A stretch of DNA of 64,000 nt, from positions 3,534,001 to 3,598,000 of the forward strand of contig JAGUCH010000001.1 of the NCBI GenBank assembly GCA_019096065.1, read 5' to 3'. Below, one piece after another: positions 31,943-43,552 of this stretch. The notes under the pieces were generated by a model. It had not been told where the DNA came from. It ran no database searches and was given only the letters and a program-made list of their open reading frames with translations. Origin of the DNA: Paracyclopina nana. Taxonomy: Eukaryota; Arthropoda; Copepoda; Cyclopoida; Cyclopettidae. How positions within the stretch are numbered: position 1 is the stretch's first letter; each line of letters starts with the position of its first letter. The translations under genes were made by a program, and so were the position numbers.

Positions 31943-32294
31943 TTCTATGAGTACCAATCAGTCACAATGAAGACGTACTTGCTCTAGATAAGGTAACGAA
32001 GTTGTAAAGTAGAAGCTTATTTAATCTCTGATTAAAGATTTGAAAAAGCTTGGATAAGGATGTCAAACAAACATCATATGAAAGAAATACTAAAATAAAA
32101 GAGTCTTGATGTCGATGCAGGTTTAGAATATATTTTCTCTCTATCAGCTGTTCGTGAACAATCACTAATTATATACATTTATTACCACAAAAATATGGCT
32201 CTGACTGGCTCTCCTTGATTTTTTTAAAACTTTTCTGTACCATTTGCACAAAGTGAGCAAGTCCAATCCACAATTTTGGCTCTTTTTGCTTTTT
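31943..32294. other. upstream region of GPLD1 and left flank of the transposon
   Basis: AT-rich, no gene seen. The stretch TTGCTTTTT directly precedes the transposon's left end. Confidence 0.4.
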
Positions 32295-32898
32295 CCCCAC
32301 CAGAATATAGACTTGTTTATATGAGACATTCAAAGTCATTAAATGACTTAAATAATGAGTCATGCCTTGAGTGTACCATGTTCCTAAAATGTGTCATTTA
32401 CTAGGCTGATCAAAGTGTCCCAAAATGAGTCAAAAAGCCCGGATTTATCATGACAATATCTATTTCATATGATTAATGAATCATCAATGGCATCATTTTT
32501 AACTAAGTTTATGTTTCATTTCAGGTGTCATCTCCTTACTTTGGATGCTCAATTGTGAACAGGCCAGCCATTATCTTGCCTTGCTCATGGAGAATGGCAC
32601 GTCCAAGCCTTTGTTGGCACTATTTGTGTGAAACCATCAATTACTCATTCTATCTCAAATTATGATGCACTAATTTTGACATGTCATTAATTTGCCATTA
32701 AATTTTGGGTTTTTATGCTCATTGACGTCTAATTTTTTGGTCACACTATGACTCATTCACGGTTGACGATTGGACTATGATCCAAGCTTGGATAACTCAT
32801 TAATTATGTATTGAAAATGCAGATTGCATCCTAGTTTTGTTTGTGGATAAATCGTTTATTACCCATTCATGACTTATTCAAGAATAAATTAATCTGGT
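32295..32898. repeat. internal copy of a transposon end (possible nested short element)
   Basis: The stretch at about 32865-32898 (CATGACTTATTCAAG then ATTAATCTGGTG) resembles the element's right end at 41115-41146 (CATGACTCATTCAAG then ATTCTGGTG), in the same orientation. With the left end at 32295 it could delimit a 604-bp non-autonomous copy, or be a duplicated subterminal segment. No ORF is present. Confidence 0.45.
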
Positions 32899-33006
32899 GT
32901 GCATTCAATAATAAACATAAATAATTTTCTTCAATCGGCAATATCACAACATGAATTTTCTCCAATTATTCCTCGCCAGAAGGTTTGGTCCTCTTGAAAG
33001 TTGAGT

Positions 33007-36000
33007 TCAGCATCTTGAATTGAATGCCCAGTCAGTGAGATCATTTGCATTTTGCTGTAAAATAAAAATATGTCTTAAGAACACTAGCTAAAATTTCATT
33101 AGCTAATAAAAATATTTGTAAAAATGGATGTGAGCGGATAAGATTGGTAATTAGGAAAATGAATTGGGACTCACAGGTGGATCAAAGGTGAAGTCTTCAT
33201 CAATTAATTGCCTCATTCCATTGTACTCAAAAAGCGACCTTGAATGGCTCATTGATGGCGGTCTCACTGCAGAGGTGAGTAAAGTGTCTCTAGTGATTAG
33301 TTGCGCTGGAGCAGTGATGGCCAATGACCCTTCAAAATCATCTTGAATAGTGCATAATCCAAGACTTTGACTGTCCTGGTAGTCAACAAGTTGTTGTGAC
33401 ATAGACCTAGACAATTTACGCCTGTCGCCACTTTGACCCTTCTTTGACTTGGCTATGATCTGGCCATCAATTGCTGTTTCGTTGTCGTTGTTTGACTTTT
33501 CAGACTCTGCATCAGCATCATGTCCCTTGTCAGTACTGCCATCATCTTTGTCTTTATCTTCCTCATCTGCATTCTCACCTTCCTCTTCTCTTTCTCTTTC
33601 AGGCTCACCTTCTGGCTCTTGACCACCATCTGGCTCATTATCGCTGTCATTATGGTCACTATCTTTTCCCTTGTCGCTGCCATCTTTATCTCCCTCCTTG
33701 TCACTTTCCTCATTGTCACTTTCCTCCTTGTCACTTTCCTCCTTGTCACTTTCCTTTTCTTTGCTGTCATCTTTTTCCTTGTCACTGTCCTCTCTCTCAC
33801 TCTCCTCTTTTCCACTGTCTTCTTTGTCACTCTTTGACTTTTCAGATTCTTTTTCACTGTCACTGTCCTCATTTTCGCTTTCAGACTTGTTGCTGTCTTC
33901 AAAAGGAGGCTCGTCATCAACTTTTCGAGAGGACTTTCCCTTTCCCCTTTTTTTGCCTTTGTTTGGCTCATCAATGGCTGCTTCAGTCTCAGCTTCTTCA
34001 ATAATGTCGTCAACAGCATTGTCACTGTCCTCATCATCGTCTAACTCGACAATGTCCTCTTCTTCTGTTGTCGTGAGCTCTTCCTCCTCTTCATCTTTCC
34101 TACTTTTCAAGGAGCTCTTCTTCTTTCGGACAATCTGCAGAGATGAATGCAATTAATGATTAAATCAAAGTCTATTCAAAGTTGACTAACCTTTACTTTC
34201 ATCTTTTGCTTCTTCTTTTTCTCATTGCTGGATGACGATTCTTGAAGTTGAGACTTTCTTGGTGTTGTCCTATCTTCTTCATGAGCGCTAACAGCAGCTG
34301 CCTTACTAGCTCGCCTTTGAATCTTCTTGCCTTTTGATTGGCTTGAGCCAGGAGTTGCATCCAAAGTTTGCATATCAGCAACTGCCTCAGCTGCAATGGC
34401 CTCAACATCAGGAATGACAAGGTTCCTTTCTCTCATTGTGCGGACGAGATCATCAAAAGTGTGATGTGTTTGCAGCACACGCTTATATTCGGCGAAAACC
34501 TATAAATGTTAATTAACGAGAATTAATGATCAATTCATAGTGCACTCAAAGTCAACTTTACCTCTGGCACATATTTGGCACTGTCAATGGTCAAAGACCT
34601 CCAGTTGCGGCCAAATTCAGCAGCACTAGCGCAAATGATGATGACAGTGTCAAAAACAGTCATGTCATCATGCATCACTTTTGGCCTGACACTTGCAAAG
34701 CATTCAGGATAATCCATGATCACCCTTTCTTGTCCTTCTGGAGTCGACTTCAAGACAAGCTTCTTCTTATTGGAGTTCTTGTAGCTTTCAAAAGACTCCC
34801 TCATTCGTCCTTTTGGAATGGCAAACTAAACGATTTCAAACAATTAAGCTAATAAATGACCCACTCATAGCTGAATCAAAGTATCTTACATTATTCCTGG
34901 AATGATATGTTGTGTCCAAGGCATACAACTTCCTAGCCATTTCCTCAACTGTGTCAGAATGCTGTCCTGCTAACTCAAGGATTCTGGTACGGGCATTTTG
35001 GCACATGTTAGCAATCACTGCCTTGAAAACAGCAATGTTGTCACCCAAAACTTTCCCTTGAGAAGAGAAAACTGTCTCCAGATAGGGCATGATTCGATTT
35101 TCAATCATCTCGATGAATCCAGGCGGCAGGGGCCTTTTCTGCCATTGAATGTTCTCCCAAGCACTATAACATTTAATTGCAATTGTACTTTGATGTGCCC
35201 ATTTATGAGCAATTAACTTACGTGGAAGACTCGCCAATGATGCAATGTCCTCTTGCAATCACATTGAACATCTTTTCAAAGACGTTACGTGATATGATGC
35301 GAATAACGCCCTTTCCGCCAAGACCATTGATGAACGGCTTCAGGTACTGGAATGCTATTTCTTGGCCATAATTGAAGGCAAAAAATGTCTCACAGCATTT
35401 TCCCATAATGTCAAATGGGAACAGTTGTGCAGCCACTCCCACACCTCTTGACTTCCGTTCTGCTTTGGTGTCGGCAAACTCTTTAACAGTCATTATGACA
35501 CTTGTCATCAGGTTTGCCATGTCGTCAAACTTGGTTTCCATTGAGACCAGCGACTTATTAGCCTTCTAATTATAGATCATCAATAAATGGGCGAATCAAA
35601 GTAAAAACAAAGTATACTTACTCCATCGGTGATTGCTGAGGAGTGAACTTTGGTCTCCAACTTGCCAAGACTGTCCTTTGCAGCCTTTCCATCCTTCTTC
35701 AATTCCTTGACATCTTCTTTAATGTCCTTAATCTCTGATAGCAGCTCTTTGTGCATTTTCTGCATCTGATTGAGAATGGATTTCAATTTATCATCCACTC
35801 CTTTCTGAGCTGCTGCCTGATTTTTCAAAATAACCGGAGTATCAGTATCAGTGCCAGCATATGTGAAGTTTCTGTCACGACTTGCATCCTTTGAAGTGCC
35901 AGGTGCCACAAAGGTGCCTTCATCCAACCCTGATCGACCTTTGGATTGGCTATGAATTGCCTCAGAAGGGGTTGATGCAGTGGGAGCAACAAAGTCGTCA

Positions 36001-37254
36001 CTGTCACTGTCTGCAAAAATGTTTCGGACAATGCTTCTCTTAGCTGCTGTAGGGCCAGTCTCATCAGTCTCGTCTCTTTTCCTTTTACTAGCAGACCTTA
36101 AGCCTGCCTTGGACGTGGATGGCTCATCAATAGTCGAGCTGGCGCTGGAGTCAGTCTTTTTATCTGACTGTGACTTCTTCTTTTCCTCAGCTTTTCGCTT
36201 CTCATCAGCCTTCTTCCTATCATCCGCTTTTTTCTTCTCCTCGGCCTTTTTCTTCTCCTCGGCCTTTTTCTTCTCTTCAGCCTTCCTCTTCTCCTCAGCC
36301 TTCCTCTTCTCCTCAGACTTCTTCTTCTCCTCAGCCTTTTTCTTATCCTCAGCCTTTTTCTTCTCCTCTGGCTTCTTCTTCTCCTCAGGCTTCTTCTTCT
36401 CCTCAGCCTTTTTCTTCTCCTCAGCCTTTTTCTTCTCTTGTGACTTGCTTTTGATGTCAGTCTTTTTCTTTTCAGAGCTGGCCTTCTTGTCTGATTTTGC
36501 CATCTGAAATAAATTTGGTTTTTGGAATTAATGAGCTAAACATAGCGAGATCAAAGTTACTGACACTTTTTGCCATTTTCATTGCATCGGCTGTGCTGGA
36601 CGATGGCTTGGAGTGAGAAATGTCTTTAGTTTTTTTGCTCTCGTCCTCACTCGTCTGAGGCATTTCAACATTTTCCTTCCTTGTCGTCCTTCCAGTCATT
36701 CTAATCAATGCCTCCTTTCCAATTTCAGGATAATTGAAGTCGACTAGCATTTTCTCATGGAATAGTGGAATCATGTTGAAGTATTCAATGCCACGTTTAT
36801 CAGCTGGCGCCTTCTTGATTCGCTTGTTCAACTTGTCAAGGTTAGCTTGAAGCACTTGATCGTCAAGGCCTGAAAGATTTTTATTCAATTGAATAATACA
36901 TTCAGGTTGCATTATCCAACTTTGATCTGGCCATGAATGGCCCATTAACGATTGTGAAAAAACAAACTCACCTTTTTCAACTCTCGCAAAAACTCCGTAG
37001 ATGTGCAATCCTCGATTTTTCATGACGGCCCTTGTGGTTCCCCGAGCTCGATCGCTTAGGTGGTTATTCACGTCACAAAAGTGGAAAACGTCATTTAGCG
37101 TTTTCCCGTCATCCATTGTCTCAGTGTTAGGTACGACAAAGAAAACTGGGTCTGCCTCATTGTTGGCAAGAACTACTCGATCGTAGACACGTCGGGAGTC
37201 TTCTTTCTCAAAGGCCACCTCGTCCTCACTCTTATCTTCTGTCATTTTTGACAT
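33007..37254 (-). CDS. transposon accessory protein, highly charged, unknown family
   Basis: Nine exons were read (36972-37254, 36565-36869, 35622-36503, 35222-35565, 34890-35163, 34562-34825, 34191-34499, 33175-34134, 33007-33054), all phase-consistent, 1222 aa. Order: an N-terminal domain (about residues 1-160, with VFFVVPNTETMDDG and GLHIYGVFARV); a Lys/Glu coiled-coil-like repeat region (KKKAEEKK units); a central uncharged domain of about 330 aa (for example GKCCETFFAFNYGQE, IICASAAEFGRNW); then basic and finally Ser/Asp/Glu-rich acidic repeats. I do not recognise a family. Its place, opposite the transposase, is like that of TnpA-type accessory genes in CACTA elements, so DNA binding or transposition-complex assembly is an inference. 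The first intron is 102 bp, in frame and stop-free, so retention would also code. The last exon could be skipped by read-through (stop at 33151). Confidence 0.75.
36190..36460 (-). repeat. 24-bp coding tandem repeat (KKAEEKKK units)
   Basis: The minus strand encodes about ten imperfect eight-residue units of the type AEEKKKAEEKKK (with PEEKKK, AEDKKK and SEEKRK variants). The DNA repeat unit is 24 bp. The pattern predicts a long charged helix. Confidence 0.85.
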
Positions 37255-37794
37255 TTCAAAATTTTGAAAAAAATGGCGTCCTCACTCTTCAGTGGACGTC
37301 AGCTGACTGATGACGTCAATGCTGCCTGGGCTTTGGATCGCCCATAGACGGCAGGGGTCAACTGTAGAGGGGGAGGCGGAGCTTAGGGCCACCGATAAGA
37401 TTTTTTTAAGGCTAAAAAAAAAAAATTCTTTTGAAATCATTCGTAGTTATGATGAAGACAATTCAATATTCAAGTTGTTTTTTAAGTTAATTGCTGAATT
37501 ATGATTGTGGCAACGAATCAATCATGATTTAGCCATTTTTCAATAATTAATGAGTCATGATATCTGGATCGGTACAAATTTTCGATCAATCGCGCTTCTT
37601 GCCAACAGCTGCTGACAAATTTGCTTAAGCGTCAATTGCACAATTTCATACTGTCAACGTTAAGGATTAATACATCTACTCTAAAGGTAACACAGCTTAC
37701 ATTCAAAGCTTTTACTGCATCATTTCATATGATGTGCGACCCATGAAGTTAGTGCTTTCTGTTAGAAATACTTTAAACTTTCAGCAAGTCAATA
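37255..37794. promoter_or_regulatory. shared divergent promoter region of the transposon genes
   Basis: The 540 bp between the two divergent start codons is non-coding. It contains an ATTAATGAGTCATGAT copy of the element-wide motif near 37545-37560. Promoter function is inferred from position. Confidence 0.5.
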
Positions 37795-40586
37795 ATGCCT
37801 CGAAAAAAGAAAGAGAAGATCATGACGAACGCTGAAAAGCAACGTTTGAAACGACAGATGAAGACAGCAAAGAAAATGCTACGTGAAATAGAAGGTCGTC
37901 TTGAAATGGAGGAGAGGCAAGCCAAGTTGCGTTTGAATCCGGGCATTAATGAGCCAAACATGGTTGGTCCAGGTACTTTTGAGTGCGATATAGTAAACAT
38001 TTGCTCGGACAACGTGAGGGATATTGTGAAGCAAAACACCCGTTTATGGAAGGAGTATCAGAAAGTGGACCCAAAGATGCTGCCACTTCCTCTACTGGAT
38101 GCAAATGTTGACGAATTGAATAAGGAGATGTCAATTCCTGACACATCTGAAGACAGTGATGCATTTGCTGGCTTTGTATCACCAGATGAAAGGAAGGAGA
38201 GGTATATATCTCGTCACGAAAAGGAGCCACTGCCATATGAGCAACGAAATGTCACTTTCAACAACAGAGAACCTGACTCTGAGAAGTCTATGTCTACCAG
38301 TTCCGAGATCGATGACACCAACCTTAGACGGACCATTTATGAGCAATTCTGTGACAAAAATGGGTTCGCCGAAATTGCTGAATTGAGAGCTTATGAAATC
38401 ATCAACAACATCCCTCTTCTTGAATTCCGACCGCCACTGCTTCCACCAATTCTTGAGGATGAGTCCAAGCCTGGAAAAGATAGAGCAGTCGTACTAGAAA
38501 GTGGCTTCAAAGTGGACGAATTAGCTGCAAGATTGGAACAGATTTCGTTGCGCAACGATGACAGTTCGTGTTCAGAGAGTGTAAGTGCTATTAATGAGAC
38601 ATCCATGGCCAATTCATAGTACATTTCTTTTAGGTTAAAGATGACATCTCATCAATCAAAAGCAACGAATCTAGTGGAAAAGAGCATGGAAATGCGGATA
38701 CGGACAATCTAGCCATGGGCCATGGTGTTGGACATCGCAATATGCCTTACATTGACATTGTGAGGTTTATCATCTATCAAAAATCATTGCCAACAGTGAA
38801 GCAGAGGGATGAGGCTTTGGAAACCTTTGTTCTTGCAATGACATCGAAATTCATTATGAAAAAAGTGCAGTCTGACTTCCTGTGGAATGTGGTTCGAGCT
38901 ATCATTCAGGTTTATGATAAAAGCAAACGGAAGCCAATGTGCTACAAGTCGATTCGATCAAAGTGGCTTCGTCTCATGCCTCGGGCATTAATTGACTTTG
39001 AATTTGTGGATCAGTTGACTGGTGAAAAATTCAATGTCACTTCTGATCATTATCCGAAACGTGAATATCCACTGAAGCAATACAAATGCACTTCACAATG
39101 GACAAAGGTGGCTGTGGAAGATGTTTATCGCCATCATTGCCGTGAGCACCCAAAAATGCCTACTGTTGCGCCATACAGTGTCAAATATGACTTGGGGGTA
39201 GATGGTGTGCCTTTGTCCAACAGTGGCCAAAATCAAATGACGCTAGTGTGCATACGTTTTGAGTGTTGCAGCAAAATGATTTACATTGGTGGAGTTCACA
39301 TTTATGTGACCGATGAAAAACTCATTCTGCGCCGGAAAATCCGTGAATTGGTCATTAATGGGCAAGACAAAGGATTTATACTACGAGTTGTCATTGCAGA
39401 CAGTCCGATGCGAGCAAAGTTGAAATGCTTGAAAGGACATTCTGGAAGGTACAGCTGCGACAGGTGCTATGCACCAGGAAAAAGCATCAATGGCCGCATT
39501 GTCTTCCCTTATAACTCTGTGGATTACAAGGAGAGGACTCATGTCGAGTGGATTCAAATTTTGGAACGCAAGAAAAAGGCGGACAGAGAAATGACAATTG
39601 ACGAATGTTTCGGGATCTCTGGTGAGAGTCCTTTTCTGGCCATTGATGGGTTTGACATAGTCGTTCAAGTGCCAATTGAACCCATGCATAACCTTTTTCT
39701 TGGAATGACCAAGGCAATGATCAATAACATCCTTGCACGCACAAAGGGGAAGAACAAATTTCTTGAAAGGTTCGACAATCAGTGGAAAAAGTTCAATATT
39801 CCAATTGATTTCAACAGAAGGCCAAGAACACTTGAAGCAAACCTTGGCCATTACAAGTCTGGTGAGTATGCAGCTATTGTCTTCTGTGCTCCATTTGCAT
39901 TTGCAAGAGCAATCATTGGTGATGAAGGGCAGGCATTAAAGAAAGTCTGGCTGCTGTTCACATACCTGCTTCGCATTGTCTTCTTTGAAGATGATCAGTA
40001 CTGTGAAATTGTCAATGCATACCCCATTCATGACCTGCACAAGATCTTCTATGCCTTGTATCAAGAAGTATTTGGGATTCAGAAATGCTCGTTCACAGTT
40101 CACGAATTCTATCATATCAGGGATACTCGTAAGAACTTCACTATGAGTGAGGTCAGTGCTGAGCCGATCGAATCATTCTTTTCCTATCTGAAGCAAGTTT
40201 TGTGCAACAACACCATTTCAGTTGGCAAACAGCTCATGGATGCCGTGAACATGGCCAATCTAGGGGAGCATTCCTGCACACGAGACATGAAAGTCATCAT
40301 TGGTGATCGGCGCGCTAATACAAGAGATGATCTCATTTACACCAAGGATCGAAAATTCTTTCAAGTTATTGACCAAGTGGATGACTCCTACTTCTGTAGA
40401 AGCATTGAGACCTCCAAGTACAAACGTGAAGAACTCAATTTCCTTGATTACAGTATTGTTGGTGTAGAAGTGAAGGAATCAGTTTCAGCAGAGATATGTA
40501 TTGTTAAGGAGACGGATGTCACAGGCAAAGCTGTTTTGGATGGCTCCATCTTGATTGCAATTCCAAAGGACGCACTTTTGGCTTAA
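37795..40586 (+). CDS. DDE-type transposase of the 8.86-kb element
   Basis: Two exons, 37795-38580 and 38634-40586, join in phase 0 to give 912 aa. The basic N-terminus (MPRKKKEKIMTNAEKQRLKR) looks DNA-binding or coiled. The second exon carries features of a widespread animal transposase-like family: LGVDGVPLSNSG (Asp about 452), VIADSPMRAKLKC (Asp about 518; the family's CDAPAR position), then the zinc-knuckle-like KGHSGRYSCDRC, VPIEPMHNLFLG (about 611) and SAEPIESFFSYLK (Glu about 772/775), giving a plausible D-D-E set. Assignment to CMC/EnSpm is by remembered similarity only. The single 53-bp intron contains ATTAATGAGAC. The reading frame is intact with no stops, so the element may be autonomous. 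AATAAA follows at 40666. Confidence 0.82.
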
Positions 40587-40665
40587 AAGAATTGTTTCTC
40601 TCCAACCCTTTGTTCACACCATGTTTTGCCCATTAATTTGCAAAGAAAAATTAATCAATACTATG

Positions 40666-40671
40666 AATAAA
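40666..40671 (+). terminator. polyadenylation signal AATAAA of the transposase gene
   Basis: AATAAA lies 80 bp after the transposase stop; a second one follows near 40723. Confidence 0.5.
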
Positions 40672-41265
40672 TTTCAATGAATACATGTTGTTGTCAGAGC
40701 GACATAATGAAAAAATATTGCAAATAAAAAAATTATCTTCTATTCATGTACCGTGGCTTTTATTTAATTACAGTAGGTTGCGGCGTATTAGCATGTACAA
40801 CAAAGAATAACAAATCTCACAGTGTTGATAGTCCAATTAAAAGTTCTTGAAGAATGGCTCATATTAACACATGACATTAATGAGCGAGGCAATGTTAACA
40901 CAATTATTAGCTCATTTAAAAATGACATGCAATGGACAATTCTAAGTCATTTTATAATGGCCCATATCGATTGCATCCATTAATGAGTCATTAAAGATTG
41001 CTCAATTTTGACGAAAAACTTAATTATTCATCTCATTTTACAATGAGTAACAATGGGCAAGCCATGGCGTCTTGGATAGCCTGGTATTATGCCCATAGTT
41101 GACTATGAGCATATCATGACTCATTCAAGGTTCAATAATTCTGGTGGGGTTGCTTGTCGTCTCAGGAAATGCATTATTGGTCCAAGTTTCTTGTCGTAAT
41201 ATGCGGCTAAACAGTTTTTAGCCATCCCTATCAGGAGAAGTAATTTTAACAAATAATTTGCACAT

Positions 41266-43552
41266 TTATAGGTGGGCTCCTAGCCTATCCATTTCTTCGA
41301 TCATAAAGTCAATATCTTCCTCTCTGATGGCTGGGTTGGACAAAATATTTCTGAAGAAATTTGGCATGTCTCCCAGAGGCTGATAGCTGAACATCAAGGT
41401 TCCAGCCATCATCATTTCTTTTTTGAGCTGAGTGGTGACCTTTTGAAAAGGATGGAATTCAGGATACCGGCATATTTATGGCAATAATAAGCCCTGCCGC
41501 TTAAGTCAAGTAGGGTAGTCAGCGCCGTCTTGCGCCAAATTTGAGCGCGCAATTTTCTAGGCAGGCTGCACGGTACTGTCTGCCCACTAGGGCCATTCGG
41601 CCATAGTGCAGTACGCGCTTAAGGTACCGCCATCTCTGGACAGTTTTCTCAGCGGCAGGGCTTATAGTTACCTTGCCCAATTCAATTTGCTTCTCCTTGG
41701 TCATTTCTATACCTCGCAGGCATTTAGGCAAGTACCAGAAGCACACGTTTACGCATTCTGGATCATCATTAACAAATAAAACTTGTCTGATAAGTCCTTC
41801 ATTCTGTCAACTTGTACTTTATGAGACCCATCAAACGGTCAACTTGATTTTCCATACCACTCTTCCCCTAAAAATAGATTTTAGCGCTAAGATGGATCAA
41901 GGAGACTAGGAAGCTATACCTTTGCCCTCCACATGTATCTTCCGCATTGGATAACTTTATCACCGGTATCGAATTGCACGTCATAATGCTTATACTATTG
42001 GAATAAATAGTCTGCTGCCAAAGTATTGCAGTCATGCAGAATACCCTGAAAATCAACACGATCTCATTAACTTGTTCGTCGATCGTCATACCTATAAAAA
42101 TTGTCAAGTACCTTTTCCTTCAGGTGGAATGTGGCGCACTGCAACAAGGTTCCAAGAGCTTGTGTGGATTCCATGTTACCGAGTCTGCTCTTTCGACCCC
42201 TGAAAATCTGGTTGGCCTGTATTTTTCACTCATTAGCGATCCACCTCCCCATGCAGCCTAAATATTAATATCTTCATTGAAACAATTGTGCTAATTAATA
42301 TTTTTTAGTGGCTTACATCAACATGCATCCACATATTATGCTTTTGGCAAATATCAGCAATATCTTTGATGGGATCGAATGCTCCCATGACAGTAGTTCC
42401 TGCAGTGCAATTGACAAAGAAAGGCGTTTTTCCTTGGCTCTTGTGCTCCGCAATCATTTCTTCAAGAGCACTTGCCAGCATACGTCCCCTAAAAAAACCA
42501 AAGCCATTGCCAAACCATGCGCACTAATAATCTATTTTAACTATATTTACCTCTCGTCACAACGAACTGGGTAGCAGTTTTCTGTACCAAATCCAGCGGT
42601 TGCACAAGCTCCCTTGATGGAGTAGTGACACTAGCAGGGAAAAATTAATGTTGTTTGCTTAATTCCATGGAACTTAGAAAGACCTACCTGGGAAGATGTA
42701 TAGATGGCAAACTTAGAGTTGTACTCTTGGGCTCCTTTGGATTTAATGGCAGGGAAATGCTTGTGTCTCACGCAAAGGAGAGCATACAAGTTCGAAATGG
42801 ATCCACCGGGGGCCCAAACAGAATCTCCATCTTGGTATCCTATGATTTCCCTCATTTTGCTCAGAACCTGGCAAATGTAAGCTAGACACAAAAATTTTCA
42901 GTTCAAATAAATTGTTCTCACTTCATGTTCCATCATTATGAAAACTGGAGCAATTTTGTATGTAAACATGTTGGTATTGGCCATTGCGGCGAGCCATTCT
43001 CCTGCCATGGAAATCATGTCCAGTCCTTGTGATAGCTGATTCAAGAATTTTGGGTGACCTAAAAGACATAATTTGTAAGATAAATATGGATGCACAACAC
43101 AAGGAGAATAGCTACCTGTTTTGATTTGGTATTTAAGCATATCTTTGCAATCAACCAGGATCTGATCAAGGTTTTGGGGCTTGTCTGGCAGTGAAAAGTC
43201 CATGACTTCCAAAAGCTGGTGGGGGTGGTGGAAATCAACAATTTTCGTCTTTCTGTCATTGCTCTTTTTGATGAAGTCAATCAAAATTCCATGGACCTCG
43301 GTTAAAAAGGCTTCGGTGTTTATTTCAGTCTTGGGTCCATTCAAAACAGGCAAAAGATCTATTTGCAATGTTACAGCTTCTCGTCAACTTAAGCATCAAG
43401 AAAATTATAGATACCAGAGAAATGAAGATTTCCAACCTCGATGATTGGAGACTTTTCTCTCTCAACATCTTGGCTGTTGATGATGTTTTCAGTTTTGGTT
43501 TCCTCAATCACTACATATTTGTTGTCGGAATGCAACTGAGTGCCAAAAGTCA
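41266..43552 (-). pseudogene. CSAD/glutamate-decarboxylase-like pseudogene, intron-containing
   Basis: The ancestor was a group II PLP-dependent decarboxylase, best matching cysteine sulfinic acid decarboxylase. Intact-looking exons read [83 protein letters not shown] and [15 protein letters not shown], reaching the PLP-lysine site [10 protein letters not shown]. Lesions: a 1-bp loss near 42150 right after NPHKLL shifts the frame; an in-frame TAG at 41995-41997; about nine codons missing between IQCGR and MWRAK near 41935; a frame break near 41802 (LTE followed by EGL in another frame). The last exon (41266-41439) still reads GTLMFSYQPLGD to the stop. Introns remain, so it arose by gene decay or DNA duplication, not retrotransposition. 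Several lesions make a single base-calling error an unlikely explanation. Confidence 0.85.
41490..41662. mobile_element. 173-bp MITE in a pseudogene intron, TA target site
   Basis: The ends are AGCCCTGCCGCT and the exact complement AGCGGCAGGGCT (12 bp), flanked on both sides by TA, which suggests a Tc1/mariner-type non-autonomous element. It is GC-richer than its surroundings and lies between the last two exons of the decarboxylase pseudogene. Confidence 0.75.

Follow-up and report, generated by a model that had tools for sequence, protein, structure and literature searches.

The 64,000-nucleotide stretch of Paracyclopina nana DNA analyzed here (contig JAGUCH010000001.1 of assembly GCA_019096065.1, positions 3,534,001 to 3,598,000; the window) contains one complete DNA transposon, which spans window positions 32295–41149 (8855 bp). 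We read it, with a probability of about 85%, as a cut-and-paste transposon of the CMC/CMCT clade that is complete and apparently autonomous and whose ends and target duplication are those of the animal TRC elements. It probably belongs to a recently active family of an already known kind. The element carries a transposase gene on the forward strand and, head to head with it, an accessory gene on the opposite strand.

The extent of the element rests on a second copy that starts and stops at exactly the same bases and on a paralogous locus without the element. The terminal inverted repeats are CCCCACCAGAAT at the left end (32295–32306, forward strand) and ATTCTGGTGGGG at the right end (41138–41149, reverse strand), as placed from the window ends, the second copy and a motif search. 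In the window, the degenerate form CCC[AC]AC[CT]AGAA[AT] has one match per strand, exactly at the two termini. When the genome (92 Mb in 10 contigs) is searched with the end sequences (201 bases on the left, 200 on the right), each query hits the window and one other place, on contig C6. The copy found there aligns with 32295–41149 exactly, at 99.5% identity (41 mismatches plus a single 6-bp gap), and the similarity ceases at both ends of the element. Because this copy ends at the same bases within unrelated flanks, the boundaries of the element are the boundaries of an insertion. In each of the two copies, both genes remain open. The original prediction, made from the window sequence, was of a complete two-gene element with inverted termini other than CACTA or CACTG, and it proposed searching the genome with the terminal sequence; that search gives the C6 copy with its identical ends, which, together with the paralogous site, bears the prediction out, the ends being of the form CCC..GGG.

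The transposase gene consists of two exons, defined by open reading frame and splice analysis. Exon 1 (37795–38580, forward strand) encodes a basic N terminus (MPRKKK...) that is conserved in two relatives, L009 and L011, and exon 2 (38634–40586, forward strand) encodes the core, which is also supported by protein alignments. The intron between them (38581–38633, 53 bp, GTAAGT...TTTTAG) joins the two open exons into a protein of 912 amino acids, the length predicted originally, and has the best splice consensus among the 28 listed GT–AG joins that leave the frame intact. When 12 transposases are aligned, D190, D256, C275, C278, H490, H494, and E513 are invariant in all of them (numbering along the open frame that starts at 38634); exactly two residues separate the cysteines, and exactly three the histidines. 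The first aspartate (39201–39203) belongs to a DGVP motif, the second (39399–39401) to ADSPMRA, and the glutamate (40170–40172) to SAEPIES, and these three residues are presumably catalytic; the C(2)C motif lies at 39456–39467 and the H(3)H motif at 40101–40115 (all on the forward strand). This D, D, C(2)C, H(3)H, E set agrees with the CMC/EnSpm-like character first proposed for the enzyme. It is the residue set of the CMCT clade, where duplications are of 2–5 bp and the ends are 5′-CA..TG-3′ in most cases (PMC12730594). The residue set and a 2-bp duplication, within that range, are both found in the window family. The acidic position before PMH (box A) is E in nine of the 12 transposases, D in two, and K in one. 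The transposase with K at this otherwise conserved residue, L024 (C9:2692741), is possibly an inactive or altered enzyme.

The 2-bp target duplication is seen in all six large insertions, as pairs of flanking dinucleotides (window TT/TT, C6 AA/AA, L009 AA/AA, L011 TT/TT, L014 GA/GA, and L015 TC/TC). In the window, the two copies of TT lie at 32293–32294 and 41150–41151, assigned from the window and C6 flanks and from the rule given by the other insertions. Thirty-three further insertions come from opposite-facing neighbors of the end motif, paired by eye among the first 100 listed places, all on contig C1 (at least one possible pair, 849507/855590, is not included). Thirty of these 33 have an exact 2-bp repeat; a 1-bp repeat also matches in six and a 4-bp repeat in one, and none has a repeat of 3 bp or of 5–12 bp. 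In total, the 2-bp duplication is present in 36 of 39 insertions. There is no fixed duplicated sequence, and TA and AT together account for 12 of the 30. Three insertions lack the repeat. One of them, L040, is an ordinary short element; the other two, L066 and L067, have rearranged or doubled short-element sequence inside and may not be single insertions.

A site without the element occurs on contig C2, where the window flanks joined with a single TT match positions 16964048–16964301 across the junction (90% identity). With longer flanks, the match extends over 364 bases at 92.9% and over 333 bases at 92.5%. This C2 site is a diverged duplicate of the element's neighborhood that lacks the element, the kind of empty site that the original prediction had suggested looking for. 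For the C6 copy, the search with joined flanks found no site without the element.

Several observations weigh against the assignment given above. The first concerns the duplication. Taken together, the two window flanks exceed the paralogous C2 site by 9 bases, a difference that requires, besides TT, a change of one 7-bp repeat unit. The 9-base gap is readable either as a 2-bp duplication with one extra CTTTTTG unit or as a 9-bp duplication with three of its nine bases altered, and the window locus alone does not decide between them. The original prediction offered both a very short (TT) and an imperfect 9-bp duplication. For the latter, six of the nine flank bases agree, and the length of the excess is the expected one. 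Three mismatches in nine bases make it improbable because the element copies differ by only 0.5%, as suits a young insertion; moreover, 2-bp repeats flank 36 of 39 insertions, none of the 33 further insertions has a 9-base repeat, and the extra bases can equal TT plus one more CTTTTTG unit. We retain the 2-bp duplication and give the 9-bp one almost no credence.

The other observations concern the protein and the ends. With Pfam, the 14 members of alignment A1 have no transposase model among their weak matches (none to PF02992 at E up to 1), and nothing matches three further relatives, a member searched again, or exon 1; the same library does detect the neighboring decarboxylase. PF02992 has no match in the whole genome, a result that says little since 14 controls are equally silent. 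Structure prediction of the 623-amino-acid open reading frame alone gives no usable fold (pLDDT 34.1, pTM 0.22). The search of solved structures returns one irrelevant match (E 0.77), and viral contigs scanned with alignment A1 give 11 pattern matches and no relative. In the TRC motif I, D-G-X3-F/Y-X7-9-W-P (PMC1636069), only D-G is found here, F/Y and W-P not being at their set places. The CCC..GGG ends depart from the CA..TG of the CMCT clade, which hold there "in most cases" and are not strictly required (PMC12730594). The missing Pfam match, the partial motif I, and the ends other than CA..TG are also what would be expected of a new DDE superfamily with CCC ends, outside CMC/EnSpm. Such a superfamily is very unlikely, given the residues invariant in 12 of 12 transposases and given the earlier descriptions of CACTA-related animal elements with CCC ends and 2-bp duplications (PMC1636069, PMC4298943).

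The closest published parallels to the CMCT transposon that we favor are the TRC elements, CACTA-related elements of animals described in 2006 (PMC1636069). Those compared here are SmTRC1 from Schistosoma mansoni and the TRC elements from Tribolium castaneum and Aedes aegypti; their ends begin with CCC, and direct repeats of 2 bp flank them, in SmTRC1 in seven of 14 copies. According to the same source, the features in common include the CCC first bases, the 2-bp flanking repeats, a CXXC past the second D, a PMH..LG-type motif between, and more than one encoded protein (from spliced transcripts in SmTRC1). In the window element, unlike in TRC, a gene of its own, on the opposite strand, encodes the second protein, and the family has no match to Transposase_21 (PF02992). 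In the TRC box A, L/V/I-D-X-L/M-H-X3-L-G, the P-M-H and most of the rest are kept here, with the D replaced by E in nine of 12 transposases and by K in one, and retained in two. At 8.9 kb, the element compares with TRC lengths of 4.5, 5.2, and 9.2 kb (PMC1636069). Spongebob_HMa of Hydra (EnSpm-4N1_HM), also a TRC element, has CCC ends (CCCAGCCAACATTGAC) and a 2-bp duplication; its end sequence (CCCAGCC) differs after CCC, and there is no intact Spongebob transposase to compare (PMC4298943).

The fungal Plavaka and ESTA share the CMCT residue set, with 2-bp duplications in PlavakaA and TA duplications in ESTA. They differ in their ends (TGT..ACA in PlavakaA, CATCA..TGATG in PlavakaB) and in the ESTA duplication, which is always TA (PMC12730594); the window family, in contrast, matches no Pfam transposase model. 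Plant CACTA elements (En/Spm, Tgmt*) are likewise two-protein elements with subterminal motifs that vary between families. They differ by CACTA ends, 3-bp duplications, and TnpA and TnpD spliced from one transcription unit; the window family has CCC ends and 2-bp duplications, with a 3-bp repeat in none of the 33 further insertions. The window family is not found in the literature searches (Repbase lay outside their reach).

Because CCC ends with a 2-bp duplication are published for TRC and Spongebob, the ends do not point to an undescribed kind of element. A new family or a divergent branch within the TRC-like kind is supported, because there is no Pfam transposase match and the TRC motif I is only partly present. 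Of the original suggestion of an undescribed family or a new branch, this much stands, and the undescribed kind does not. We place the element in the CMCT clade, with the ends and duplication of TRC and presumably a TRC-like way of working; for the same two reasons, we stop short of assigning it to TRC in the strict sense.

The transposase has many relatives in the genome. The protein search gives at least 85 matched rows (a lower bound, 71 of 234 candidates having been scored), 80 of the 85 without an internal stop. When L025 is the query, a second protein search gives 72 rows; eight of them have stops, in some cases several, so decayed copies exist too. Near-identical pairs of relatives (99.7%–100% over 3.4–4.1 kb) suggest recent movement. 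CCC ends occur in the window, in the C6 copy, and as right ends in 18 of 20 transposase loci. The end-motif pattern CCCMACYAGAAW occurs 467 times forward and 482 times reverse in the genome (949), whereas its reversed control occurs 23 and 15 times (38). The transposases also form a second large branch, which includes L025 and L026 (C3:11278618 and C5:2109278) and C2:2568779–2587228; many of its members have long N-terminal extensions, with open frames of up to 963 amino acids. Over 3804 bases, L025 does not differ from L026; on C2, three copies lie about 8 kb apart. The ends of L025 and L026 may differ from the others (..CACTTAGTGGGG); the two loci diverge three bases past a GGGG.

Short elements accompany these large ones. 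A high-copy element of 272–285 bp on C1 (L031–L046) has CCCAACCAGAAA ends and 2-bp duplications (in 15 of the 16); 15 of them (L032–L046, 272–285 bp) are 89%–98% identical to L031. Two 1.23-kb elements, L048 (C1:2879390–2880743) and L049 (C1:2944047–2945397), have exactly the 12-bp ends of the window element and are 93% identical to each other; neither resembles its interior at E 1e-3. These two are possible passengers of the window element's family. The 285-bp elements were considered as simple internal deletions of the window element, L009, L011, L014, or L015, a reading rejected when no alignment was obtained at E 1e-3 (for the window query, matches starting in the low-complexity stretch 33500–36600 were left out). 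The short relatives look like nonautonomous passengers.

Seven introns interrupt the accessory gene (33007–37254, reverse strand) in a simple splice model; there are six if the gene ends at 33151. The gene is open in this model, encoding 1260 amino acids, or 1252 without the last intron, with predicted exon ends; the open gene on the opposite strand was foreseen correctly, and its proposed length of 1222 amino acids gives way to these values. The coding sequence of the model has no internal stop in the window or in the C6 copy, where one difference removes the first ATG and the next lies three codons downstream. Of seven pieces of the gene, L009 keeps five, L011 four, and L014 and L015 two each, upstream of the transposase and on the opposite strand, and the transposases of the relatives that keep it are 38%–57% identical. 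Between the window and C6 copies, the two genes together (splice model) differ by 10 nonsynonymous and 15 synonymous changes (expected nonsynonymous share 0.80, P = 1.6e-5), the accessory gene alone by 6 and 9 (0.80, P = 0.0007), and the transposase alone by 4 and 6 (0.79, P = 0.008). In nine pairs between branches, synonymous sites are saturated (pS 0.77–0.83), with pN 0.17–0.31.

The accessory protein has nothing above the cutoff in Pfam, with only sub-cutoff matches, many of coiled-coil type, and it contains acidic and lysine-rich repeats. The protein may be cargo, or directed at the host (against silencing or acting on chromatin, for example), rather than a transposition factor. The absence of a recognizable domain accords with such a role, and the repeats would suit a chromatin-acting protein. 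On the other side, a second protein is required for En/Spm transposition (PMC1636069, PMC2613891), and conservation and the lean toward synonymous changes indicate a lasting role in the element, without specifying which. We consider a role as cargo or against the host rather doubtful, and a part in transposition is assumed in the mechanism below.

The motif TGA(C/G)TCA, which is the AP-1 consensus, occurs six times in the element: three times near the left end (32356–32755; starts 32356, 32426, and 32749), twice near the right end (40984–41123; starts 40984 and 41117), and once between the genes (37551–37557), within the intergenic region 37255–37794 that we presume to be a shared promoter from the positions of the genes. 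There are none elsewhere in the element. The commonest 7-mer in the terminal 600 and 500 bases, AATGAGT, is present eight times, a count reached in four of 200 shuffles. For the commonest terminal 7-mer of the relatives, the corresponding numbers are one of 200 in L009 (poly-A), 15 of 200 in L011, and 116 of 200 in L014. Two further points are to be counted with the unfavorable ones. The AP-1-like motif was chosen after looking, so that its P-value of 1e-6 overstates the case. It is also not common to the relatives checked: two of four sites in L009 fall in the ends or intergenic regions, L011 has no site at all, and L014 has none in those regions. A subterminal motif common to all branches was sought and not found in the four elements checked.

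In the mechanism that we propose, the 912-amino-acid DDE-type transposase would recognize the CCC(C/A)ACCAGAA ends, excise the element, and integrate it at target cuts staggered by 2 bp. The accessory protein would act like the plant TnpA, binding the repeated subterminal AATGA(G/C)TCA-like motifs and bringing the ends together. The same motif between the genes, when bound, could regulate both of them, a form of self-control. The binder at the ends (for synapsis) and at the intergenic site might be either the accessory protein or the N terminus of the transposase, with AATGAGTCA as candidate sites. The TnpA-like binding is suggested by analogy, because plant CACTA elements, too, have subterminal motifs that vary from family to family and serve as binding sites for TnpA-type proteins (PMC2613891). 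Alternatively, the sites could serve host bZIP factors that drive transcription of the element, and not a protein of the element. The resemblance to the AP-1 consensus and the intergenic site fit this possibility, which we hold to be rather unlikely; five of the six sites are subterminal, at both ends, the usual place of binding sites for the transposase complex in CACTA elements (PMC2613891). Catalysis, DNA binding, and regulation are inferred, as is any assignment of an enzyme to the short elements.

The element adjoins the 3′ end of a gene for a pyridoxal-dependent decarboxylase (41266–43383, reverse strand, PF00282). The region beside the element has a 92%–95% identical duplicate on C2 without the element (L076, C2:16963400–16965000). 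At the contig starts, C2 (L071, 1–1200) has CCTAA/TTAGG-type telomere repeats (TTAGG is the usual telomere repeat of arthropods, which makes an arthropod host probable) and C1 (L070, 1–1200) has a GGCCT-type short tandem repeat. The start of C10 (268 kb; L069, 1–6000) has a degenerate TGTGTTCGC-like repeat, and that of C3 has neither TTAGG-type nor GGCCT-type repeats.

To the known CCC-ended elements, these observations add a large and diverse group within one genome, transposases invisible to Pfam, a conserved head-to-head partner gene, and AP-1-like sites specific to the family. Because its transposases match no Pfam model, a large group may escape routine domain annotation. A more speculative picture, which we put forward with considerable reserve, is that of a deep, Pfam-invisible arthropod branch of CMCT, in which a transposase stands head to head with a TnpA-like protein of independent origin, and one AP-1-like motif, present at each end and again in the shared promoter, links the recognition of the ends to self-regulation. 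For tests of how animal CMC elements with CCC ends move, the element is a practical candidate, and it is suited to asking whether they need two proteins, like En/Spm of plants.

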